From Gemmatimonadota bacterium (GTDB lineage: Bacteria; Gemmatimonadota; Gemmatimonadetes; Gemmatimonadales; Gemmatimonadaceae), in NCBI GenBank assembly GCA_003222065.1, contig QHUV01000126.1, positions 1 through 9,164 of the forward strand: a stretch of 9,164 nucleotides of DNA, read 5' to 3'. Below the pieces are notes generated by a model. It made no database searches. It was given only the letters and a program-made list of their open reading frames with translations, and had not been told where the DNA came from. Position numbers and translations under genes: made by a program. Below, piece by piece: positions 1 through 9,164 of the stretch (position 1 is its first letter; the number at the start of each line of letters is the position of its first letter).

Positions 1-2054
1 TAGATCATCGGCTCTTCTCCCGATGTGATGTCGCCGCGCCTAACGTCGGACACGACACCGACGATGACCAAACCGCTGTCCGTCTGCCGGCGGCCAAACC
101 CGACGTGCTTTCCGATCGCGTCGGAGCCGGGCCAGAAACGCGAGGCCGCCGCGGCGGTCACGATCGCGACCCGTTGCCGTTCATCCCACGTGATGTCGCG
201 GCCCTTGAGCAGGCGCATCCCCATCGTGCGGAAATAGTCCGGAACCACCGCGCTCACCTGGCTCATCAGCGTCCCCGAAACGTTCGCCTCGGGGCGCTCG
301 ATGAGGCGTATGCCGTCCGAAATCCCACCCGATTGCGCCGGCGCCCGATCCGAGGCGGATACGCTCGTTACCCCGGGCACGGCAAGCAGGCGCCGCTGCA
401 GGTCGCGATAGAAGGACGTCTCGGCCGAGTCCGGATACCGCGCTGGCAGCGTTAGGCGGAGTGCCACGGCGTGATCGGTGCGAATGCCGAGATCGAGACT
501 GATAATCTTGCGGAAACTCTGCAGCACCAAGCCGGCGCCGACAAGCAACATCAGGGCAAGCGACAGTTCAGCAATGACGAGCCCGCCTCGAAGCCGCCAC
601 GCATGCATCGCGCCGGCGCTGCCTCGGCCGCCGTCGCGCAACGTGCTGCCGATCTCGGGATCCGATGCGCGCAGCGCCGGCCACAGCCCGAATACCAGGC
701 CGGTGACGAGCGCGATCATCATCGCGAAGCCGAATACCCAACCATCCAAGGACACTTCATCCAGCCGGCTGATGCTTTGCGGGGCCAATGCGATCAACGT
801 TCGCGTACCGGCGACGCCGAGCGCCACACCGAGCAGCCCGCCTAACGCGGCGAGGGCCCCACTTTCCACCAGGAGCTGGCCGATGAGGCGGGCACGACTC
901 GCGCCAAGCGCTCTCCGGACGGTCAGCTCCCGACTCCGTGCCGCGCTTCGCGTCAGCTGGAGGTTCGCGACGTTGATGCAGGCGATGAGCAGTACGAGCG
1001 CCGACGCGGCGAGCAGAATCATGAGCGGCCGCGAGACGTCGCCGACAATCTCACTGCGCATCGAGTACACGTTGGCTGCCCAGCCCTGATCCTCTCGCGC
1101 ATATTCGGTCGCGAGCTCACTCGCGACGCGACGCATGTCGCGCTGCGCGTCGTCCACGCCGACGCCCGCCCGCAAGCGGGCCGCAACGCGCAGCAGATGG
1201 TTCGCGCGATTCTGATACTTTGGAATTTGCTGAACTATCGCCGGCGCCCACACGTCGACGTCGCGGGTGTACAACCGAAAGCTAGGCGGCAACACGCCGA
1301 TCACCGTCTTGCCCGATCCATTGAGGGTGATGCGCTTGCCGACGATGCTCGAATCGGCGCCGAAGCGCCTCACCCAGACCCCATATGAGAGAACGACGTC
1401 GCCGTCCGGTTCACCCGGCGCGAAAAGCCGTCCATGCAGCGGCGCGATGCCGAAGAGTGAGAACAGGTTGTCCGAGGCGACGACCGCTGAAAGCCGCTCC
1501 GGCTCCGCGCCGTCACTCAACGTCATCGTGCTGTTGAGCCACATCGCCATGTCGGTGAAGACACGGTTGCGCGTCTTGAAGTCGAGGTAGTCCTGTACCG
1601 AGACGCTGAATTTCTGGAGCGTGCCGTCAGGATTCTGCGAGTAGACGCGCACGAGCTCCGCCGGCCGCTCGTAAGGCAATGGTCGCAGCAGGACCGCGTT
1701 CACAATGCTGAAGATCGCGCTCGTCGCGCCGACGCCGAGTCCCAATGTGAGGATCACGACCGTCGCAAAGCCGGGTGATTTCCTCATCCCTCGCAGCGCG
1801 ATGCGGAGATCCTGGGCGACGTGCTCGACGAGGCGAACGCCCCGGGCGTCCCGCGCCTCTTCCTTGTAGCGTTCGACCCCACCGAAGGTGAGGAGCGCCG
1901 CGCGACGCGCTTCGTGAGGTGTCATGCCGAGGCGTTCGTTCTTCTGCTGCTCGAGCTCGATGTGCAGTTGGAGCTCGTCGGCCAGCTCGCGCTCGACATG
2001 AGCGCGGCGCGTCAGCGCTCGCAACCGCCGCGCGAGGCGATGCATGAACACCAT
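1..2054 (-). CDS. ADOP-family ABC transporter permease (FtsX/MacB-like), C-terminus off the left edge
   Basis: Inner-membrane permease of the acidobacterial duplicated orphan permease type, related to MacB/FtsX. Such proteins have two FtsX-type halves and usually no adjacent ATPase; the substrate is unknown. I read 684 uninterrupted codons from ATG 2054 to the window edge. Residues about 20-72 form the soluble N-terminal prefix typical of these proteins (ERELADELQLHIE, then TPHEARRAALLTFGG). TM1 is about 97-118 (FATVVILTLGLGVGATSAIF), followed by a periplasmic MacB-PCD domain, TM2 about 344-366 (ALVLLIACINVANL), further helices, a second-half TM near 485-508, and part of the second periplasmic domain (VIVGVVSDVRRGD). 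Full-length relatives run to about 800-890 residues, so the last three helices are missing here. The start is ATG 2054; an in-frame ATG at 2045 is an alternative. The gene begins 19 bp after the PadR stop, so co-transcription is likely. No ATPase gene is visible. Family assignment is strong; function is not known. Confidence 0.93.
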   Translation of the reverse strand, partial: MVFMHRLARRLRALTRRAHVERELADELQLHIELEQQKNERLGMTPHEARRAALLTFGGVERYKEEARDARGVRLVEHVAQDLRIALRGMRKSPGFATVVILTLGLGVGATSAIFSIVNAVLLRPLPYERPAELVRVYSQNPDGTLQKFSVSVQDYLDFKTRNRVFTDMAMWLNSTMTLSDGAEPERLSAVVASDNLFSLFGIAPLHGRLFAPGEPDGDVVLSYGVWVRRFGADSSIVGKRITLNGSGKTVIGVLPPSFRLYTRDVDVWAPAIVQQIPKYQNRANHLLRVAARLRAGVGVDDAQRDMRRVASELATEYAREDQGWAANVYSMRSEIVGDVSRPLMILLAASALVLLIACINVANLQLTRSAARSRELTVRRALGASRARLIGQLLVESGALAALGGLLGVALGVAGTRTLIALAPQSISRLDEVSLDGWVFGFAMMIALVTGLVFGLWPALRASDPEIGSTLRDGGRGSAGAMHAWRLRGGLVIAELSLALMLLVGAGLVLQSFRKIISLDLGIRTDHAVALRLTLPARYPDSAETSFYRDLQRRLLAVPGVTSVSASDRAPAQSGGISDGIRLIERPEANVSGTLMSQVSAVVPDYFRTMGMRLLKGRDITWDERQRVAIVTAAAASRFWPGSDAIGKHVGFGRRQTDSGLVIVGVVSDVRRGDITSGEEPMI

Positions 2055-2073
2055 GTGAGAATCCGCCCTGTCG

Positions 2074-2406
2074 TTAGGTCGTAGCCATGACGGCGTCGAT
2101 CGCCGTGGCGAACCGCCGCCAACTTGCGGCTTCGTTGCTGAGCTGCCGTTGCCCGGCTTTCGTCAGCTGGTAGAACTTTGCCTTCCGGTTGTTTTCCGAC
2201 GTTCCCCACTCCGCGTCGATCCAGCCGCGATCCTCGAGGCGGTGGAGCGCCGGATAGAGCGAGCCTTGATTGACTTGCAGCACGTTGCGCGAGATCTGCT
2301 GGATCCGCTGGGCGACGCCCCAGCCGTGCATCGGCTCGAGCGAGAGCGCCTTGAGAATCAGCATGTCGAGCGTGCCTTGCAGGACGTCGTTCGTCTCGAC
2401 GGGCAT
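2074..2406 (-). CDS. PadR-family transcriptional regulator
   Basis: Small winged-helix regulator of 110 residues, probably a dimeric repressor of its own operon. Residues 7-19 (DVLQGTLDMLILK) are the hallmark N-terminal helix of PadR proteins found beside ADOP permeases. The recognition helix region is about 45-63 (VNQGSLYPALHRLEDRGWI), and the wing and following helix lie at about 73-89 (NRKAKFYQLTKAGQRQL). I chose ATG 2406 because family members start 5-10 residues before LQGTLD. The frame stays open upstream only to a TTG at 2484, and that extension would translate the upstream inverted repeat. No clear Shine-Dalgarno sequence precedes ATG 2406. The gene ends with TAA 19 bp before the permease start. 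Pairing of PadR with ADOP permeases is common in Acidobacteriota and Gemmatimonadota; the ligand is unknown. Confidence 0.93.
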   Translation of the reverse strand: MPVETNDVLQGTLDMLILKALSLEPMHGWGVAQRIQQISRNVLQVNQGSLYPALHRLEDRGWIDAEWGTSENNRKAKFYQLTKAGQRQLSNEAASWRRFATAIDAVMATT

Positions 2407-2443
2407 CGAAAGAGGGGCTAGGGCAAGGAAAGGCGACTCCCCA

Positions 2444-2483
2444 TGACGTTCGACAAGAGTGAAGGCGCTCTTGTCGAATGTCA
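2444..2483 (-). promoter_or_regulatory. Inverted repeat in the PadR-permease promoter region, candidate operator
   Basis: Arms 2444-2459 and 2468-2483 are complementary at 15 of 16 positions, the exception being a G-T pair at 2448/2479. They are separated by 8 nt, and the inner 11 bp (TTCGACAAGAG) are perfect. The element ends 38 nt before the PadR start codon. Read on the minus strand, a consensus -35 hexamer TTGACA (2479-2484) overlaps its right arm. The hexamer 17 nt further on (CACTCT) is a poor -10, so the exact promoter is uncertain. A dyad here fits autoregulation by PadR. It could instead act as an RNA hairpin in the leader. No T-run follows on either strand, which argues against a terminator. 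Confidence 0.6.
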
Positions 2484-2597
2484 AGGGGACGGGAAGCGCA
2501 CCGCGTGGCCTATGGATTCTCGCCTTTCCCCGGCGGCCTTTGTGTCCCGGTCGATTCGCCGCGGCGTCAGCGCGAGCTAGAGCACCAACAGCTTCAT

Positions 2598-2643
2598 CAC
2601 GGATTCCCCGGATTCACAACAGATTTCACGGATCTGCTCCGTG
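2598..2643. repeat. Degenerate CACGGATT-type intergenic repeat
   Basis: CGGAT or a near variant recurs every 10-12 nt (CACGGATT, CCGGATTCAC, CAGATTTCACGGAT). The right end can fold into a small hairpin, CACGGA 2627-2632 with TCCGTG 2638-2643 and a 5-nt loop. It looks like a decayed member of the CACGGATT-type intergenic repeats I recall from several soil bacterial phyla. It lies in the gene-free stretch 2407-2801, where I see no convincing ORF or RNA gene. Confidence 0.4.
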
Positions 2644-2745
2644 CGCGTTCATGACTCCACCCCTCACGAGCCCGGACGATCCTTCTTGTGAACGACCTCG
2701 GCAAGTTCGTCGCGCCGGGCGATTTCCCCGGCCCTCGTTCGACGT

Positions 2746-2797
2746 GTAGGTAGAGCTAGGAATGGCCCTAGCACCCAACTCCAACCCTAGTCCCTAC
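2746..2797. repeat. Short inverted array of CCYARC-like units upstream of the YCII gene
   Basis: The right half reads as 6-7 nt units close to NCCYARY (CCCTAGC, ACCCAAC, TCCAAC, CCTAGT, CCCTAC). The left half holds partial reverse complements (GTAGG, GCTAGG). GCTAGG 2755-2760 and CCTAGC 2767-2772 form a perfect 6-bp stem around a 6-nt loop. The element ends 4 nt before the YCII start codon, so it occupies the place where a ribosome binding site would be; none is visible. Confidence 0.4.
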
Positions 2798-2801
2798 TTC
2801 C

Positions 2802-3269
2802 ATGCGATTCATGGTCATCGTCAAGGCGAACGCGGAGACCGAAGCTGGCAAGCTTCCGAGCACCGAGCTGCTCACCGCGATGGGCAAGTACAATGAGGAT
2901 CTCGTGAAAGCCGGCGTCATGCTTGCGGGCGAAGGGCTCCAGCCGAGCTCGAAGGGGGCCCGCATCAAGTTCGCAGGTAGCAAGCGGACCGTCGTCGACG
3001 GGCCGTTCGCCGAGACGAAGGAGCTCATCGCCGGCTTCTGGCTCTGGCAGTGCCGGTCGAAGGAAGAGGCAATCGAATGGGCGAAGCGGTGCCCGAATCC
3101 AACGGGCGAGGAGTCGGTGCTCGAGATTCGCCAGGTGTTCGAGGCCGACGACTTCGGCGCCGAGCTCACTCCCGAACTGAGGGAACAGGAACAGCGGATC
3201 AGTGCGAAGATGTCCGCGAATGCGCAAAGCGCGGAGCGTAAAGCGCCGGGCGTAGAGCGTGGTGCGTAG
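2802..3269 (+). CDS. YCII/DGPF-domain family protein
   Basis: Soluble cytoplasmic protein of 155 residues in the YCII (YciI-like, DGPF) family. Residues 1-10 (MRFMVIVKAN) and the diagnostic DGPFAETKE at 66-74, followed by LIAGFWLWQ, leave little doubt. Family members adopt a ferredoxin-like alpha/beta fold and are often encoded beside ECF sigma factors, but no sigma factor gene is visible here. The biochemical role of this subfamily is unknown. The start at ATG 2802 matches the usual N-terminus; an ATG at codon 4 is possible but would remove the first strand. The domain seems to end near residue 135-140. Residues 141-155 (SAERKAPGVERGA and preceding AQ) are encoded entirely by the heptad array that starts at 3224, so the tail is probably a by-product of repeat expansion over the original stop. 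The next gene starts 77 bp downstream on the same strand. Confidence 0.92.
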   Translation: MRFMVIVKANAETEAGKLPSTELLTAMGKYNEDLVKAGVMLAGEGLQPSSKGARIKFAGSKRTVVDGPFAETKELIAGFWLWQCRSKEEAIEWAKRCPNPTGEESVLEIRQVFEADDFGAELTPELREQEQRISAKMSANAQSAERKAPGVERGA

Positions 3270-3342
3270 AGCGTGCTTCGGTCGCGCTCCACGCCTCACG
3301 CTCACGCTCCACGCCTAACGCTCAACGCCTAACGCTCTACGC
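3224..3342. repeat. Head-to-head array of 7-bp repeats (GTAGAGC units, then ACGCYYN units)
   Basis: The left half, 3224-3272, is seven consecutive heptads: GCAAAGC, GCGGAGC, GTAAAGC, GCCGGGC, GTAGAGC, GTGGTGC, GTAGAGC. After a short centre (about 3273-3290, with TTCGG) the right half, 3291-3342, holds the reverse-complement form: ACGCCTC, ACGCTC (6 nt), ACGCTCC, ACGCCTA, ACGCTCA, ACGCCTA, ACGCTCT, ACGC. The 11-mer GCGTAGAGCGT occurs at 3250-3260 and 3264-3274, and its perfect complement is at 3332-3342, so several alternative hairpins are possible. A further stem is 3264-3273 with 3285-3294 (9 of 10). The array covers the last 15 codons of the YCII gene and ends 4 nt before the permease start. 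It resembles the heptameric short tandem repeats (STRR) of cyanobacteria in design, not in sequence. Confidence 0.85.
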
Positions 3343-3346
3343 AACC

Positions 3347-5794
3347 ATGACCTTCCTCTCCGATCTCCGCCGCGCTTTCCGCAGCCTCTACAAGGCTCGC
3401 GGCTTTGCCAGTGCCGTCATCCTCACGCTCGCGTTAGGCATCGGCGCGAACACGGCGATGTTCACCCTCCTCCGCGGTACACTCCTCCGGCCGCTCCCCA
3501 ATCGCCAAGGGGAACGGCTCGTCTACCTGCGCCAGTCGGCGAAGGGCGCCGGCCAGGACAACGTAGGCTTCTCCGTCCCGGAGATCATCGACTATCGCTC
3601 GGCGACGAAGACGCTCGCCAGCATCGCCGAGTACTCGTCGATGACCTTTACGATGATCGAGAAGGACGAGCCCGTGCACATTCAGGCCGGCATCGTCAGC
3701 GGCAACTACTTCGAGGTGATGGGGCTCGCTCCGGCGCTCGGTCGCCTAACGAGCCCGCAGGACGACGGCCCGGCCGCCGCCCCGATCGCCGTGCTCTCGC
3801 ATGCGTTCTGGATGCAACACTTCGGCGGTGACCCGAGCGTCATTGGACGCCGCGTGCGCATCAACGACATGGCGTCGACGATCGTCGGCGTCGTCCAGCG
3901 CGCCCCACACTACCCGACGCGCACCGACCTGTTCGTGAACATGGTGACGAGCCCGCACCACCTGAGCGCGACGATGAAGCAAGGGCGCACGCACCGCATG
4001 ACGGAGGTCTTCGCGCGCCTCGCACCGAACGCGACCGTCGAGCAGTCGCGCGCCGAGATCGCGCGCATCGGGACCAACGTGCGCGCCGACCATCCGGAGG
4101 CGTACGAGCGCGCCGCGCAGTACACGATCAGCGTCTCACCGCTCCGCATGGCGCTGAATGAGCGCGCTTCGTTGACACTTTGGCTTCTCATGGGCGCCGC
4201 GGCCTTTGTTCTCCTCATTGCGTGCGCAAACGTCGCGAACTTGACGCTGATGCGCGGCGTTCGGCGCGAGCGGGAAATGCTCGTGCGGGCCGCCCTCGGC
4301 GCCGGGAGCTGGCGGCTACGACGATTGCTCCTCGCCGAGAATCTGGCCTTGGCGCTCGTCGGTGGGGCGTTAGGCGTTCTCGTCGCCTTCGCCGGACTCA
4401 AGATGTTGGTCGCGTTCGCCTCACAGCTCACTCCGCGCGCCGACGAGATTCGCGTCGACGGACTGGTGCTGACTGTCGGCTTGCTCACGAGCATCGCCGC
4501 CGCGATCGTGCTCTCATTCGTGCCGGCGGTCGGACAGGAGAATTCACTGGCCGCGCCGATGGCTGCCGCGGGACGACGGACGACCGCCGGCCGTGGACGC
4601 CAGCGCCTCCAGCACACCCTCGTCGTCGCGCAGCTCGCCGTGTGTATGGTGCTTCTCACTGCGGCCGGACTCCTCGTCCGCACGCTGACGAAGCTCAACT
4701 CCGTCGAGACAGGCGTGCGGGCGGAGAACGTTCTGACGATGGAGATTCCCATAGAGACCAACGCGCTCGATCAGCCCGCCAAGCTGTCGATGTACGAGCG
4801 TATGCGCGATCGCGTCTGGACGCTTCCTGGCGTACAGGTCGCGTCGATCGGCTCGAACGTTCCGTTGCGCAGCACGTACTTCATTCTCGAGGTTAAGGCC
4901 GAAGGGCGTGCACTCGCCTCCGGCGAAGCAACCCCCCGCGCCGTGTATAAGACTGCCGATCCGCAGTACTTCGAGGCGGCGGGAATTCCATTGCTCAAAG
5001 GGCGCACCTTCACCACGACGGACCGGCGCGAATCCGCGCGCGTCGTAATTCTCAGCAAGTCGTTCGCCGAGCGGCTGTTCGGCAATCAGGATCCGCTCGG
5101 CCGGCGCGTCGCGTGGACGGGCGAAGTACTGAAGTTCATACCCGTCTCCGGCGATTGGCGCACGGTCGTCGGCGTCGTCGGTGACACCCGCGACCAAGGT
5201 CTCGACACCGATCCCACGCCGACGATGTTTCAGCCGATGGCACAGGAAGAGGTGTTCGCCGGCGCGATGGTCATTCGGACGCGCACCGATCCGAACGTCG
5301 TTCGGCCAGCCGCTTTGCGTGCGATTCGTGAGCTGTATCCGCGACAGCTCATCGAGAACGTCGCGACGCTCGACGAGGTGCGCGATGCTACCGTTGCCCC
5401 GCGCCGCTTGAACGCGCTGTTCATCGCATCGTTCGGCGCACTGGCGATGGTTATCGCCATGGTCGGGATCGCCGGTGTGCTCGCCTTCTCGGTCAGCGCG
5501 CGGACGCAGGAGATCGGCATCCGCATGAGTCTCGGTGCCGACGCGTCGCGGGTCTTGCGCATGGTTCTCGCCGAGGGCGGCGTCCTCCTCGCCATCGGGC
5601 TTGCCGTTGGCTTCACCGGTGCGCTGGCGACATCGGGGCTGTTGCGGGGTCTGCTCTTCGGGGTCGCGCCGCACGATCCCGCCACGTTAGGCGGTGTCGC
5701 TTTCATCATCGCCGCCGTTGGTGTGGCAGCGTGTCTGCTTCCCGCGTTACGTGCGGCGCGCGTCGATCCGGCGGTGGCGTTGCGATCCGAGTGA
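3347..5794 (+). CDS. ADOP-family ABC transporter permease (FtsX/MacB-like), complete, without N-terminal prefix domain
   Basis: Inner-membrane protein of 815 residues with two FtsX/MacB-type halves. TM1 is about 21-41 (AVILTLALGIGANTAMF), followed by a periplasmic MacB-PCD domain (about 45-260) containing NYFEVMGLAPALGR. TM2-4 are at about 278-300 (VLLIACANVANLTLMRG), 328-352 and 373-395. The second half has a TM at about 425-445, a second periplasmic domain with YFEAAGIPLLKGR and VVGVVGDTRDQG, and TMs at about 688-713, 742-765 and 782-800. It ends with the family's RAARVDPAVALRSE. Unlike the permease at 1-2054 it begins directly before TM1 and lacks the soluble prefix. No PadR gene or ATPase gene adjoins it. 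ATG 3347 has no Shine-Dalgarno sequence, since its leader is heptad repeat. It may be co-transcribed with the YCII gene 77 bp upstream. The substrate is unknown. Confidence 0.94.
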   Translation: MTFLSDLRRAFRSLYKARGFASAVILTLALGIGANTAMFTLLRGTLLRPLPNRQGERLVYLRQSAKGAGQDNVGFSVPEIIDYRSATKTLASIAEYSSMTFTMIEKDEPVHIQAGIVSGNYFEVMGLAPALGRLTSPQDDGPAAAPIAVLSHAFWMQHFGGDPSVIGRRVRINDMASTIVGVVQRAPHYPTRTDLFVNMVTSPHHLSATMKQGRTHRMTEVFARLAPNATVEQSRAEIARIGTNVRADHPEAYERAAQYTISVSPLRMALNERASLTLWLLMGAAAFVLLIACANVANLTLMRGVRREREMLVRAALGAGSWRLRRLLLAENLALALVGGALGVLVAFAGLKMLVAFASQLTPRADEIRVDGLVLTVGLLTSIAAAIVLSFVPAVGQENSLAAPMAAAGRRTTAGRGRQRLQHTLVVAQLAVCMVLLTAAGLLVRTLTKLNSVETGVRAENVLTMEIPIETNALDQPAKLSMYERMRDRVWTLPGVQVASIGSNVPLRSTYFILEVKAEGRALASGEATPRAVYKTADPQYFEAAGIPLLKGRTFTTTDRRESARVVILSKSFAERLFGNQDPLGRRVAWTGEVLKFIPVSGDWRTVVGVVGDTRDQGLDTDPTPTMFQPMAQEEVFAGAMVIRTRTDPNVVRPAALRAIRELYPRQLIENVATLDEVRDATVAPRRLNALFIASFGALAMVIAMVGIAGVLAFSVSARTQEIGIRMSLGADASRVLRMVLAEGGVLLAIGLAVGFTGALATSGLLRGLLFGVAPHDPATLGGVAFIIAAVGVAACLLPALRAARVDPAVALRSE

Positions 5795-5809
5795 CGTTCT
5801 GGTTGAGCG

Positions 5810-5869
5810 CGGACTCACGCGGACGCACGCGGACGAATCGGCTCGTCCGCGTGCGTCCGCGTTAGTCCG
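5810..5869. terminator. Large near-perfect hairpin between convergent genes, putative bidirectional terminator or palindromic repeat
   Basis: Arms 5810-5836 and 5843-5869 (27 nt each) are complementary except at one position, around a 6-nt loop ATCGGC (5837-5842). The inner 20 bp are perfect and contain a tandem 10-nt unit (ACGCGGACGC, ACGCGGACGA). It lies 15 bp after the permease stop and 24 bp before the stop of the convergent peptidase gene, as expected for a shared terminator. Neither strand has a T-run after the stem, so it is not a canonical intrinsic terminator. It could instead be a dispersed palindromic repeat or an mRNA 3' end protector. Confidence 0.6.
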
Positions 5870-5893
5870 TGTTAACCCTGACAAGCGAGATCA

Positions 5894-7372
5894 CTACGGG
5901 ACTGGCCTGGCGCCTCTCGTCCGCGCCAGCGCTTCGATCTCCGCGATTTCCCTTGGCGCGCCAGCGCTGATGCGCTCGACGCCGGATTGCGTCACCACGT
6001 AGTCGTCCTCGATGCGCACGCCCGTGTTCTCGTAGCGCATAACGAGTGGACGGACGCGCGCGATGTACGCACGGTTGCGTGGCGTGTCGGGCAGCGCCGC
6101 CAGGGCGCGAGTGCTGATGTAAATCCCCGGCTCGATCGTGAACGCATCGCCGGGCTGATACGTGCGCTCGCCGTAGTAGAACTGCGCCGGATCGTGCACG
6201 GCGAGTCCGAGCCCGTGACTGATGCCATGTACCGTCCAGAAGTACGCCTGCGTGCACGGGCGCGGAGTGGCGGTGCAATCGACGGCCCACGGCGGATCGA
6301 GCGTCGCGTCGGCGCTGTCGATGAGGCCGAGCGCCGCGAGTCCACGCGCGCGCACGGCGAACGATGAGTCCTCGGCGGCGCGCGCCAACGCGCCGGGCTT
6401 GGCGACGCGCTCGGCGGCCGCCTGTGCGTCGCGGACGAGCTGGTAGATCGCGCGCTGCGCGGCCGTAAACGTTCCGCTCACGGGCAGCGTGCGCGTGATG
6501 TCCGCCGCATACCCCTGATATTCGGCCGCGGCGTCGATGACGACTAAATCACCTGGTCGCGCCACGGCAGTGTCCTTCATGTAATGCAGCTGGGTGCCGT
6601 TGACGCCGGAGCCGACGATCGAGCCGTATGCGGCGCGCTCGGCGCCCAGCTTCTTGAACGTGTACTCGATGAGCGCCGCGACCTCATACTCGTGCTGTGG
6701 CGGCGGCGCCTGCATGACGGTGCGATGTCCTTCGGCGCTGATTTGGGCGGCGCGTTTGAGGAGCGCGATCTCCGCGGGACTCTTGCGCGCACGCAGCTGG
6801 TCGAGGAGTTGGTGCGCGTCCTTGACGACGAGCCCTGGATGACGCGCCGCCACCGCCCTCACGAATTGTTGACCCCTCGTTAGGGTATCGACGCGCGCGA
6901 AGTCCGCGTCCTCGAAGTCGGAGAGTGCGTAGAGAGGCACGCCGGTCGACACGAGCGAGTCGACGACCGTCCCGAGCGCCGCGAACGGTCGCGACGGAAG
7001 CTGGAGCGAACGCGCGATCGCCGTGGAATCGGGACGAAAGCCGTAGTAAAATGCGCGGCGCGGATCGATCGGCGTCGCGAACAGAGTGCTCGTCGCGCGT
7101 CCGCCGCGCGCCACTAGTACGAATGCCGCGTCCGGCTCATCGTAACCCGTGAGATAGTGGAAGGCGGGAAGCTGGAAGAACGTGCCGTAGTCAGTCACTG
7201 GCGTGCGTCCACCGAAGGCGATGACGACGCCGTCCCCGATATGCGCCGCCATCGAGTCGCGGCGGGCGGCATATTCGGTGGTCGAGATCTGCGCGCTGAG
7301 TGACGTGGCTGCCGCGAACAGCAGGCCGACGACAGTCATCAAGCTGGCGCGAGCGCAACGAATTTTACGCAT
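5894..7372 (-). CDS. pepP: Secreted Xaa-Pro aminopeptidase (aminopeptidase P, peptidase family M24B)
   Basis: Removes the N-terminal residue of peptides with proline in second position, using two divalent metals, usually Mn. The product has 492 residues. An AMP_N domain (about 33-165) is followed by the pita-bread catalytic domain (about 200-470). The five expected metal ligands are present: D280, D291 (VVIDAAAEYQGYAADITRT), H386 (HGISHGLGL), E414 (FTIEPGIYI) and E455 (GVRIEDD). H263 and H393 match the further active-site histidines of E. coli PepP. Residues 1-27 form a Sec signal peptide (MRKIRCARAS, hydrophobic core, SLSA before Gln), so the enzyme is probably periplasmic, whereas E. coli PepP is cytoplasmic. 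An insertion at about 335-378 carries two cysteines (C366, C373) that could form a disulfide. I chose ATG 7372 because it yields the signal peptide. The frame stays open to 8026, but that part lies antisense to the exonuclease gene. Confidence 0.94.
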   Translation of the reverse strand: MRKIRCARASLMTVVGLLFAAATSLSAQISTTEYAARRDSMAAHIGDGVVIAFGGRTPVTDYGTFFQLPAFHYLTGYDEPDAAFVLVARGGRATSTLFATPIDPRRAFYYGFRPDSTAIARSLQLPSRPFAALGTVVDSLVSTGVPLYALSDFEDADFARVDTLTRGQQFVRAVAARHPGLVVKDAHQLLDQLRARKSPAEIALLKRAAQISAEGHRTVMQAPPPQHEYEVAALIEYTFKKLGAERAAYGSIVGSGVNGTQLHYMKDTAVARPGDLVVIDAAAEYQGYAADITRTLPVSGTFTAAQRAIYQLVRDAQAAAERVAKPGALARAAEDSSFAVRARGLAALGLIDSADATLDPPWAVDCTATPRPCTQAYFWTVHGISHGLGLAVHDPAQFYYGERTYQPGDAFTIEPGIYISTRALAALPDTPRNRAYIARVRPLVMRYENTGVRIEDDYVVTQSGVERISAGAPREIAEIEALARTRGARPVP

Positions 7373-7432
7373 TTCAGTTTGGGTCCAGTCGAAGACATAC
7401 CAATCTGCTTCAACGGGGTCGTATACTGCCAT
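7373..7432. promoter_or_regulatory. Divergent promoter region with a -10 element for the exonuclease gene
   Basis: These 60 bp separate the divergently transcribed peptidase and exonuclease genes and must hold both promoters unless transcription comes from further away. On the plus strand TATACT (7422-7427) matches the sigma-70 -10 consensus at five of six positions. I see no matching -35 at 16-18 nt spacing. The hexamer ends 5 nt before ATG 7433, so transcription from it would start at or beside the start codon, giving a leaderless mRNA. On the minus strand I find no convincing promoter for the peptidase. Confidence 0.4.
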
Positions 7433-8284
7433 ATGGTCGTGCATCTCCTCGACGGCACCTACGAGTTGTTCCGCCACTTCTACGGGCTGCGACGCTTCAC
7501 CAAAGGCGAGGACCCGCCGTTTGGCGCGGTGATCGGCGTACTGCGCACCGTACTGCAGATGCTCGAGACGGGCGCCACGCACATCGGCGTCGCGACGGAT
7601 CACGTCATCGAATCCTTCCGCAACCAGCTCTGGCCCGGCTACAAGACCGGCGAAGGCGTCGAGCGTGCGCTGCTCGCCCAGTTCCATCCTCTCGAGGAGG
7701 CGCTCGTCGCTATGGGTGTTGCGGTGTGGCCGATGGTGGAGCTGGAAGCCGACGACGCACTCGCCTCCGCCGCGCACCTCGCGGAAATGGACGCGACGGC
7801 GGAGAAAATTTGCATCTGGACGCCCGATAAAGATCTCGCGCAGTGCGTCCGCGACGACCGCGTCGTGCAGGTCGATCGGCGCAGCGGAAAGATTCGCAAC
7901 GCCGATGGTGTTCGCGAGAAGTTCGGCGTCCTGCCGGCGTTGATCCCTGATTTTCTGGCGCTCGTCGGCGATTCGGCCGATGGATATCCAGGGCTTCCCG
8001 GCATTGGACCGGCGACAGCCGCCCAATTACTCAACCGGCACGGCGCGATCGAGAATCTTCCGCCGGATGTGCTGCGACCCGACAAGCGTGAGCTCGCGCT
8101 CCTTTTCAAGGACCTCGCGACTCTCCGCACGAACGCGCCACTATTCCGCAATGTCGACGAGCTCCGCTGGAATGGCCCCACGACCGAATTCGACGCGTGG
8201 GCAAAGCGCATCGGCGAGGAACGTCTCGTCGAACGCGCGACGAAGGCGAATGCCGCGCTGCGTGGTAGTTCCCTTGCACGCTGA
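7433..8284 (+). CDS. Stand-alone 5'-3' exonuclease / flap endonuclease homologue
   Basis: Structure-specific nuclease related to the N-terminal domain of DNA polymerase I, expected to remove 5' flaps or RNA primers in replication and repair. The product has 283 residues with no polymerase domain. Metal-binding acidic residues of the family are in place: D7 (HLLDGTY), D56 (ATDH, followed by SFRNQLWPGYKTG), E105-A-D107-D108 (ELEADDALA), D132 and D134 (TPDKDLAQ), and D180 and D183 (LVGDSADGYPG). A helix-3-turn-helix DNA-binding element follows (GLPGIGPATAAQLL, about 187-200). The usual GDKD is PDKD here. I chose ATG 7433 because homologues begin just before the LIDGTYELFRHF-like motif. The longer frame starts only at a TTG (7379) and would add 18 unlike residues. 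No clear Shine-Dalgarno sequence is present, consistent with leaderless translation. It diverges from the peptidase gene. Confidence 0.9.
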   Translation: MVVHLLDGTYELFRHFYGLRRFTKGEDPPFGAVIGVLRTVLQMLETGATHIGVATDHVIESFRNQLWPGYKTGEGVERALLAQFHPLEEALVAMGVAVWPMVELEADDALASAAHLAEMDATAEKICIWTPDKDLAQCVRDDRVVQVDRRSGKIRNADGVREKFGVLPALIPDFLALVGDSADGYPGLPGIGPATAAQLLNRHGAIENLPPDVLRPDKRELALLFKDLATLRTNAPLFRNVDELRWNGPTTEFDAWAKRIGEERLVERATKANAALRGSSLAR

Positions 8285-8402
8285 CGCAGCTCGCGAATCC
8301 AGGCGAGCGGAGCCGGGAGTCCTTTCGCGCGATAAGGGTGTGGGCGCCCTCGCGTGTCGTGTGACGGGAAGCGAGCATGGCACGTTGACATCAACAAATG
8401 CT

Positions 8403-8406
8403 GGAG
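8403..8406 (+). promoter_or_regulatory. Ribosome binding site that selects the Rieske gene start
   Basis: GGAG at 8403-8406 is 9 nt before ATG 8416. This favours 8416 over the in-frame ATGs at 8398, which would place the GGAG inside the gene, and at 8422 and 8431, which are further away. Confidence 0.5.
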
Positions 8407-8415
8407 CAGCAACGA

Positions 8416-8925
8416 ATGCTGATGGACAACATGAATGTCCAGCCCGAGTGCCGTGGCTGCGATCACGATCCATCACGCGGGTTGCGACCCGCCGTCATGG
8501 GCGCGCACGAAGATGGGATCGGGCGGCGGACCTTTCTGATTCAGAGCGGGATCTTGACGGCAATCGCGGCGCTCAGCGCGTGCGGAGGCTTGGGCGGCGG
8601 AGAGATCACGGCGCCTAACGTAAACAGTACAATCAACATCAGCGACTATCCTGCGCTCGCGAACATTGGGGGCGTGGCCATCTTCACACTCGGATCAGCA
8701 CCACTCGCTGTCGTGAGGACGGCAGCCTCGACCTTCCTCGCGCTGTCGCGAGTTTGTCCGCATCAGGGTGGAACTGTGCAGCGGTCGGGCAACGATTTCG
8801 TATGCCCCGTGCACGGCGCGACCTATGACCTGACGGGACAATGGATCGGCGGACAACGGGCGTCGAGTCTCCATCGGTACACGACCACGTATGACGCCAG
8901 CGCGGGCACACTCGCCATCAGTTGA
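8416..8925 (+). CDS. Rieske [2Fe-2S] protein with Tat signal and lipobox
   Basis: Exported electron-transfer protein of 169 residues, counted from ATG 8416. The cluster ligands are C114 and H116 (VCPHQGG) and C130 and H133 (FVCPVHGATYD), the classic CxH...CxxH pattern of a Rieske fold, here with 13 intervening residues. At 37-38 is a twin-arginine signal (GRRTFLIQ) followed by a hydrophobic stretch and the lipobox LSAC with C56. The protein is therefore probably folded with its cluster in the cytoplasm, exported by Tat and lipidated. A Gly-rich linker follows. The unusually long N-region contains C12-x-x-C15 (ECRGCDHD), which would be removed on maturation. No cytochrome b, oxidase or oxygenase partner is visible, so the redox partner is unknown. 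Start codons at 8398 and 8497 are alternatives. A preceding 131-bp gap (8285-8415) shows no gene. Confidence 0.88.
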   Translation: MLMDNMNVQPECRGCDHDPSRGLRPAVMGAHEDGIGRRTFLIQSGILTAIAALSACGGLGGGEITAPNVNSTINISDYPALANIGGVAIFTLGSAPLAVVRTAASTFLALSRVCPHQGGTVQRSGNDFVCPVHGATYDLTGQWIGGQRASSLHRYTTTYDASAGTLAIS

Positions 8926-8970
8926 ACACTGTCGCCGCTAGTTGGAAAAGGAATATGTGCCGGAGCGAAC

Positions 8971-9164
8971 ATGATCGTTGCATGCGCCCTGCTGTTCGGG
9001 CTGGTTCAGGTGCCGCAGCTTCCGGTTGCGGTCCGAACATCATGGGTCGGCCCAGTCGGCGTGGTGCGGGCGGCGTTGCCCGCTGACACACTGCGCGGCC
9101 TAACGACCCGTGTCGCGCCGATACCTCCAGTCTCTCCCGACACACCGGAGGTGCGCCGGCCGCG
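8971..9164 (+). CDS. Start of a probable exported protein, C-terminus off the right edge
   Basis: From ATG 8971 the frame is open to the window edge (64 full codons). GGAG at 8962-8965, 5 nt upstream, is a good ribosome binding site. The product starts MIVACALLFGLVQVP, a short hydrophobic segment that looks like a signal peptide with little positive charge. A Pro-, Val- and Arg-rich stretch with no recognisable domain follows (RVAPIPPVSPDTPEVRRP near the edge). It starts 45 bp after the Rieske gene on the same strand and may form an operon with it. I do not recognise the family. The Rieske/exported-protein pairing could indicate an envelope redox function, but that is speculation. Confidence 0.55.
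   Translation, partial: MIVACALLFGLVQVPQLPVAVRTSWVGPVGVVRAALPADTLRGLTTRVAPIPPVSPDTPEVRRP

Follow-up and report, generated by a model that had tools for sequence, protein, structure and literature searches.

DNA-uptake sequences are described for two families, the Neisseriaceae and the Pasteurellaceae, in the available excerpt of PMC7811141, and gains of the uptake word of Neisseria are reported in recombination tracts in that of PMC2397512. The open-licence literature searched yielded no paper on uptake sequences under Gemmatimonad-/Gemmatimonas, nor on the 7-mer considered here, and for Verrucomicrobiota it yielded one metagenomics review. The subject of this analysis is a contig of 9,164 bases (QHUV01000126.1, C549; "the window", meaning the whole stretch of DNA analysed) from a Gemmatimonadaceae assembly (GCA_003222065.1, G000; 3.73 Mb, 736 contigs, 81.7% complete), and a short non-palindromic word that is iterated through it. 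A first-pass annotation, made from the letters of the window, had named an uptake signal among several candidate roles for this word. That role is the best single reading of the data: with a probability of roughly one half, the word is a DNA-uptake (self-recognition) sequence, whose predicted reader is a candidate receptor of the type IV pilus/ComEC competence machinery. The excess of the word and its codon, orientation and spacing patterns speak for this reading, whereas no gene tested separates genomes rich in the word from those poor in it.

Excess and sharpness of the word

The sequence CCTAACG is present 13 times in the window, seven times on the plus strand and six on the minus strand, compared to a mean of 0.47 and a largest count of 3 in 200 dinucleotide shuffles, and nine of the 13 sites read CGCCTAACG (six forward, three reverse). 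The site count, orientations and nine longer matches given in the first-pass annotation were therefore confirmed. Its iterated word is real, but the evidence best supports a core of GCCTAAC with a following G (GCCTAACG; reverse complement CGTTAGGC) rather than CCTAACG. This full core is found at 11 of the 13 window sites and is absent at 2072 (CGTTAGGT) and 6878 (CGTTAGGG). Across the host assembly there are 958 copies of CGCCTAACG, 446 and 512 by strand, against 70 for a reversed control pattern, and the mixed orientation and a density like that of uptake sequences, both remarked on earlier, hold genome-wide as in the window.

Expected counts were taken from a third-order Markov model and 7-mers were ordered by z-score, using samples of each genome. 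GCCTAAC was the top 7-mer in Gemmatirosa kalamazoonensis (G080, hereafter Gemmatirosa), both on the chromosome (312 copies against 25.1 expected in 460 kb) and on the megaplasmids (66 against 5.5 in 80 kb), and also in the samples of G245 (123 against 10.8), G200 (86 against 8.6), G242 (42 against 3.3) and G133 (29 against 3.3). It ranked first in the host as well (66 against 6.3), in a sample made up mostly of loci picked for holding the word. Genera g10 and g13, sampled together over 80 kb, had it in second place (25 against 4.1), the overlapping TGCCTAA being first. The genome count is thus far over Markov expectation, and the excess proposed from the window is not confined to it.

The word is sharply bounded. 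In 540 kb of Gemmatirosa, GCCTAACG was counted 332 times against 14.9 expected, and 17 of its 24 single-base variants were at or below expectation. Two variants were clearly enriched, GCCCAACG (85 against 14.2) and GCCTAACA (31 against 5.8), and two others gave 55 against 27.8 (GCCTGACG) and 3 against 0.8 (GCTTAACG). An inserted or mobile repeat is not supported as the source of the word, because the flanks hold little information past one base on each side. No rival iterated word of comparable strength was found in 100 kb each of the word-poor genomes G159, G025 and G004, or in 200 kb of G019.

Some further over-represented sequences were seen. GTTGGGC, one step off the word, is enriched in Gemmatirosa and G200 and needs the leading G (in Gemmatirosa, 49 cases of xxG TTG GGC against 2 without G); it is either a weak variant site or a decay product. 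The Gemmatirosa samples L112-L114 and L130-L149 also over-represent TCGGGACTC (63 against 3.3) and AGGACTGAA (25 against 0.6), and in 60 kb of G242 (L212-L214) AGGGGCTAG is strongly over-represented, with 6 copies against about 0.03 expected.

Codon choice at word sites

Genes were called with a simple custom caller, and atypical calls may include false genes. The word was found in four coding registers. Of the 178 TTA codons counted over 540 kb of Gemmatirosa, 160 are part of GTTAGGC, as are 60 of 88 in G245 and 120 of 170 in G200. The base before the codon pair is decisive. In Gemmatirosa, xxG TTA GGC occurs 160 times, TTA GGC after a base other than G once, and TTA with another glycine codon never, and G-CCT-AAC outnumbers CCT-AAC after another base by 84 to 1. 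The corresponding numbers are 60, 3 and 1 with 13 to 0 in G245, and 120, 0 and 6 with 37 to 3 in G200. The word-poor genomes G019 and G159 showed no TTA GGC among 433 and 228 Leu-Gly pairs, respectively. Permissible Pro-Asn sites bear the word in 46% of cases in G200 and 33% in Gemmatirosa, and permissible Leu-Gly sites in 32% and 13%.

The density of the word per kb outside and inside called genes was 1.24 and 0.61 in Gemmatirosa, 1.37 and 0.44 in G245, and 1.08 and 1.05 in G200, so that coding DNA is poorer in the word in two genomes and equal in the third; the excerpt of PMC7811141 describes uptake sequences as scarcer in coding DNA and in recently acquired DNA. A preference for codon pairs or codon usage is rejected as the cause, because the base preceding the pair decides and the word is equally or more dense outside genes. 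The data support selection, or drive, that acts on the DNA word as such. The first-pass annotation had placed the word in both coding and intergenic DNA, noted its TTA and CTA leucine codons and argued for selection on the word, and all of this held, with drive to be set beside selection; the codon-pair alternative that it had raised is ruled out by the required leading G and by the copies outside genes.

The comparison of orthologues it had suggested was run on rpoB. G200 carries nine words in this gene and G229, of the same genus, carries none; leucine is kept at all nine positions in G229, as CTC or CTG. In word-bearing genomes 12 of the 15 word columns are Leu-Gly positions, and columns are reused across genera (1569 in six genomes, 620 and 1221 in five, 898 in four). 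There are only 12 well-conserved Leu-Gly columns in rpoB, so some reuse is expected.

Distribution in two phyla

Among 298 Gemmatimonadota genomes, 20 carry CGCCTAACG at 80-2056 copies and the other 278 at 0-51, so that the word extends patchily to relatives of the host, the check that had been proposed for it. The 20 word-rich genomes fall in 12 genera of three families. The change can be abrupt within a genus, with 1948 copies in G200 against 1 in G229 (genus g24), and 85 in G186 against 6 in G261 (genus g55). An rpoB tree, built by a quick method with support from the Shimodaira-Hasegawa-like approximate likelihood ratio test only and covering 26 of the 30 genomes searched, has word-rich and word-poor lineages interleaved, with 16 word-rich rows among the 26. 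Parsimony on this tree requires 8 changes, of which supported branches force at least 5, and a count as low arose in 280 of 500 label shuffles.

A set of 50 named genomes was also searched, of which 23 are titled as Gemmatimonadota relatives. Word-rich members include the metagenome-assembled genome (MAG) 'Gemmatimonas sp. b28_HoplandSoilSeptJan' (1397 copies) and Gemmatimonadaceae OFX_bin.8 (352 copies, with counts equal to those of G048). Among the 27 others, two Verrucomicrobiota hold 160 and 173 copies and the remaining 25 hold at most 29. A scan of 145 Verrucomicrobiota found none with more than 80 copies except the query genome. Within the order Chthoniobacterales, 14 of 117 genomes carry at least 80 copies (89-2020) and the rest 0-75; the largest counts are those of G593 (2020), G585 (1313), G581 (986), G550 (975) and G506 (728), followed by nine genomes with 89-240.

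In 40 kb of G593 the word reads GCCTAACGA, at 53 copies against 1.0 expected, and GCCTAAC is present 63 times against 7.8. The second following base is A at 56 of these 63 sites, which is not so in Gemmatirosa; this is dialect-like variation, and it counts in favour of an uptake sequence. Here the word holds 16 of 83 TTA codons, and CCT-AAC is preceded by G nine times and by another base three times, a codon signal weaker than in the Gemmatimonadota samples, in a genome of lower GC. The strong, patchy occurrence of one iterated word across two phyla is real.

Orientation and spacing

Over the 23 samples of the Gemmatirosa chromosome the two orientations numbered 152 and 160. No replichore bias was found in this genome, as the best co-orientation over all possible origins was 57.1% and was matched by 113 of 1000 random sets. 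This does not agree with a replication-oriented, strongly terminus-directed word of the FtsK-orienting polar sequence (KOPS) type, and the earlier argument against strand-biased words of that kind was upheld by this test.

Spacing was judged against a null that keeps the number of sites per class and draws them among permissible codon positions and noncoding DNA. G200 has too few neighbours at 20-100 bp (7 against 21.7 expected; none of 400 simulations as low), and so has Gemmatirosa (9 against 18.7; 1 of 400), where the effect covers 20-200 bp. In G200, spacings of 200-400 bp (56 against 40.0) and 400-800 bp (75 against 56.4) are in excess. In Haemophilus, uptake is not raised by a second uptake sequence within 100 bp, as stated in the excerpt of PMC7811141, and set beside that result the scarcity of close neighbours in G200 and Gemmatirosa counts for uptake.

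Spacings below 20 bp make up 19 of 463 in Gemmatirosa and G245 pooled, and 18 of these 19 pairs share their orientation. A role of the word as a seed of heptad arrays, one of which lies in the window, does not account for it, given the same small share.

Competence genes and the uptake reading

A panel of 50 genomes, comprising all 20 with at least 80 copies and 30 of the other 278, was searched for genes of the competence machinery; G121, with 51 copies, was classed as word-poor. ComEC was detected in 43 of the 50 (18 of 20 word-rich, 25 of 30 word-poor), PilM in all 50 (20 and 30, one partial and one weak match both being word-poor), and GspH-type pilins in 37 (14 of 20 and 23 of 30), none of which was singled out as a receptor. 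The competence genes that the first-pass annotation had proposed to look for are therefore present in word-rich genomes, but also in their word-poor relatives. ComEC, PilM, GspH-type pilins and the integron integrase occur in both classes; the route for uptake is present, and none of them explains the on/off switch.

If the word is an uptake sequence, cells would favour fragments that bear it, and recombination between homologous stretches would spread it to recipients, in which it would accumulate until the protein sequence cannot give way. Loss or change of the reader would leave the word to be erased by codon bias, as may have happened in word-poor sister lineages. Its occurrence in a second phylum would imply either that the specificity of the reader is very old or that it has moved between phyla.

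The use of sites within genes was also compared. Gemmatirosa genes with the most atypical codons (the lowest 5%) use few candidate sites, 2 of 47, which counts for uptake, and in G200 site use rises clearly over gene quintiles (.211,.208,.382,.316,.474).

A number of observations weigh against the uptake reading. None of the four genes or gene groups named above separates word-rich from word-poor genomes in the panel. Spacing in G245 is not significantly off the null (20-100 bp: 3 against 4.6), and pairs closer than 20 bp exceed expectation in Gemmatirosa (14 against 5.3) but are absent in G200 (0 against 5.3). Site use over gene quintiles is near flat in Gemmatirosa (.138,.195,.191,.155,.169). 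The rRNA genes of G200 carry two words in about 4.35 kb, and a 21-kb element of Gemmatirosa carries 14 words in a repeated unit of ~15 kb, a density at least that of the chromosome. The word is, moreover, identical in two phyla, whereas the uptake sequences of the Neisseriaceae occur as dialects in the excerpt of PMC3630211.

The 21-kb element itself (L031, 1-20000) repeats at an offset of ~14,997 bases, and its unit may be about 15 kb. To judge from its proteins it resembles a phage or satellite, and it may be a phage according to PMC3974934; it had no match among the phage records searched.

Chi-like sites and nucleoid proteins

A Chi-like site would stop a helicase-nuclease of the RecBCD, AddAB or AdnAB type from degrading DNA and start recombination, so that selection would favour its presence on chromosomes, plasmids and resident phages. 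The length of the word and its lack of symmetry fit such a role, as does its presence on the chromosome, the megaplasmids (66 copies against 5.5 in 80 kb) and the phage-like element, and one site per stretch would be enough, which is consistent with the spacing. Chi sites are usually strand-biased and over-represented just a few-fold. As the best co-orientation with replication in Gemmatirosa was 57.1%, with 113 of 1000 random sets as high, a Chi-like role is considered rather unlikely.

A role as a scattered binding site for a protein that organises the nucleoid, segregates chromosomes or repairs DNA is improbable. The copies are dispersed, present on all replicons tested and spaced apart, as this would predict, but they show no KOPS-like orientation bias, and to be on in one lineage and off in its sister would be unusual for a core chromosome function.

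Relation to integron attC sites

Clusters of the word in a single orientation were found in word-poor genomes, and these are integron cassette arrays with attC sites. When attC sites were located by their inner box in five arrays, the outer arm was GCCTAAC in 46 of 59, and the next base was G in all 52 arms found. The base preceding the arm (C 28, T 13, G 7, A 4) is much like that of the chromosomal words. A consensus of RYYYAAC and GTTRRRY is published for the arms (excerpt of PMC3053210), and the word fits it. This match over eight bases may be due to chance, shared constraint or cause.

It is improbable, to about the same degree as a nucleoid-protein site, that GCCTAACG is a shared uptake code mimicking the attC arm. 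Under that proposal a competence receptor would prefer cassette arms, cells would harvest cassette DNA from any phylum, biased uptake would multiply the arm and the gene for the reader would move between phyla; such movement would account for a word that is present in Gemmatimonadota and Chthoniobacterales and missing in sister lineages.

Slightly less probable is a word tied to the integron itself, with the chromosomal copies serving as target, decoy or capture sites for the integrase. The agreement of arm, next base and preceding bases, and the published consensus, are in its favour. Against it, an integrase scored over the cut-off in 31 of the 50 panel genomes, in 13 of 20 word-rich and 18 of 30 word-poor, and so does not separate them; GTCTAACG fits the consensus yet is not enriched in Gemmatirosa (1 against 10.6 expected); and inward word pairs 45-160 bp apart number 1-3 per word-rich sample compared to 42 in the cassette arrays. 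That the chromosomal words are themselves attC sites is rejected, as they do not show the two inverted arms with inner boxes over 57-141 bp.

The integron loci showed some further features. A partial integrase gene adjoins the array G002:C80. In the host, the integrase (G000:C102:2096-3035) consists of two adjoining pieces in different frames and may be broken or mis-assembled. The arrays L200, L201, L202, L203 and L204, from word-poor Gemmatimonadota, have regular attC sites, and a gene in L202 resembles an IS110-type transposase on reading.

Methylation and mutation

It is very improbable that the word is a site of methylation or arose through biased mutation or repair: although cyanobacterial highly iterated palindromes are tied to methyltransferases in the excerpt of PMC4390886, none of the three N6-methyladenine (m6A) motifs in the single-molecule real-time (SMRT) methylome of Gemmatirosa (RGATCY, ATGCAC, CCAGN7TCA; PMC3974934, the one published methylome, with 5-methylcytosine outside its coverage) matches the word, so that the methylase site suggested at first was not borne out, and biased mutation would neither require a pair of synonymous changes at each site (CTC or CTG GGC to TTA GGC) nor avoid neighbouring words.

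Sites and genes in the window

CCTAACG was located by scanning at positions 39, 450, 841, 2072, 3314, 3328, 3432, 3745, 4368, 5685, 6878, 8614 and 9099. Of the eight open frames tested, all but one matched a Pfam family; these seven encode two MacB/FtsX-type permeases, a PadR regulator, a YCII protein, an M24 peptidase, a 5'-3' exonuclease and a Rieske protein. The permease genes (3-2045 and 3347-5794) lie on both sides of the PadR regulator and YCII gene. The first of them, on the minus strand, contains the word at 38..45 (plus), 450..457 (minus) and 840..847 (plus). A partial site, CCTAACG without the leading G, is at 2072..2078 on the minus strand, at the end of the PadR reading frame.

Between the YCII and second permease genes, at 3227-3344, is an intergenic heptad array (ACGCTCA, ACGCCTA and similar units), the halves of which resemble the arms of one long hairpin. 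It holds two plus-strand copies of the word 14 bp apart in the same orientation, at 3313..3320 and 3327..3334. Four copies fall in the plus-strand permease gene, at 3432..3439 (minus; GCG TTA GGC, Ala-Leu-Gly), 3744..3751 (plus; CGC CTA ACG, Arg-Leu-Thr), 4368..4375 (minus; GCG TTA GGC, Ala-Leu-Gly) and 5685..5692 (minus; ACG TTA GGC, Thr-Leu-Gly). The intergenic stretch that follows, 5796-5880, has CGCGGAC-like units repeated in both directions, perhaps a terminator hairpin.

The second partial site, again without the leading G, is at 6878..6884 on the minus strand, in the minus-strand M24 peptidase gene. The last two copies are on the plus strand, at 8613..8620 in the Rieske protein gene (GCG CCT AAC, Ala-Pro-Asn) and at 9098..9105 in a frame that is open to the window end and has no Pfam match. 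The 5'-3' exonuclease gene, at 7436-8284, has relatives with 67-78% identity under record titles from many phyla, one of them an archaeal MAG, among the 80 of 444 loci kept; this spread reflects either wide transfer or mislabelled MAGs.

Significance and comparison with known systems

A word that is sharply on or off in two phyla offers many natural contrasts for finding the gene of its reader, and the same contrasts between word-rich and word-poor genomes allow molecular drive to be tested against selection. Because the word equals the attC arm, a connection of natural transformation with the capture of cassettes can be put to a direct test. Should the word not be an uptake signal, an equally widespread and novel DNA-reading system would be at work.

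Like the highly iterated palindrome HIP1 of cyanobacteria, this is an 8-mer iterated genome-wide that some relatives lack. HIP1 is palindromic and linked to methyltransferases (excerpt of PMC4390886), whereas the present word is non-palindromic and no matching methylation motif is reported for Gemmatirosa. Chi is comparable in length, in lack of symmetry and in occurring on several replicons; it differs in its usual replication orientation, which was not found here, and in its far smaller excess. The attC arm (R box, RYYYAAC / GTTRRRY) is the closest match in sequence, the 8-mer being the usual outer arm and next base in arrays of this order, but the chromosomal words are single, without partner arm or inner boxes, and lie in core genes such as rpoB.

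The DNA uptake sequences (DUS) of the Neisseriaceae and uptake signal sequences (USS) of the Pasteurellaceae measure 9-12 bases and belong to two families, while the word described here has eight bases and is found in other phyla, as one word in two of them. It also differs in having sister lineages without it and a phage-like element with it, and in showing no inverted pairs such as those in neisserial terminators. In common with DUS and USS it is short, non-palindromic and strongly over-represented in both orientations, lies inside and between genes at a spacing of ~1 kb, is built by point changes, and is accompanied by competence genes.

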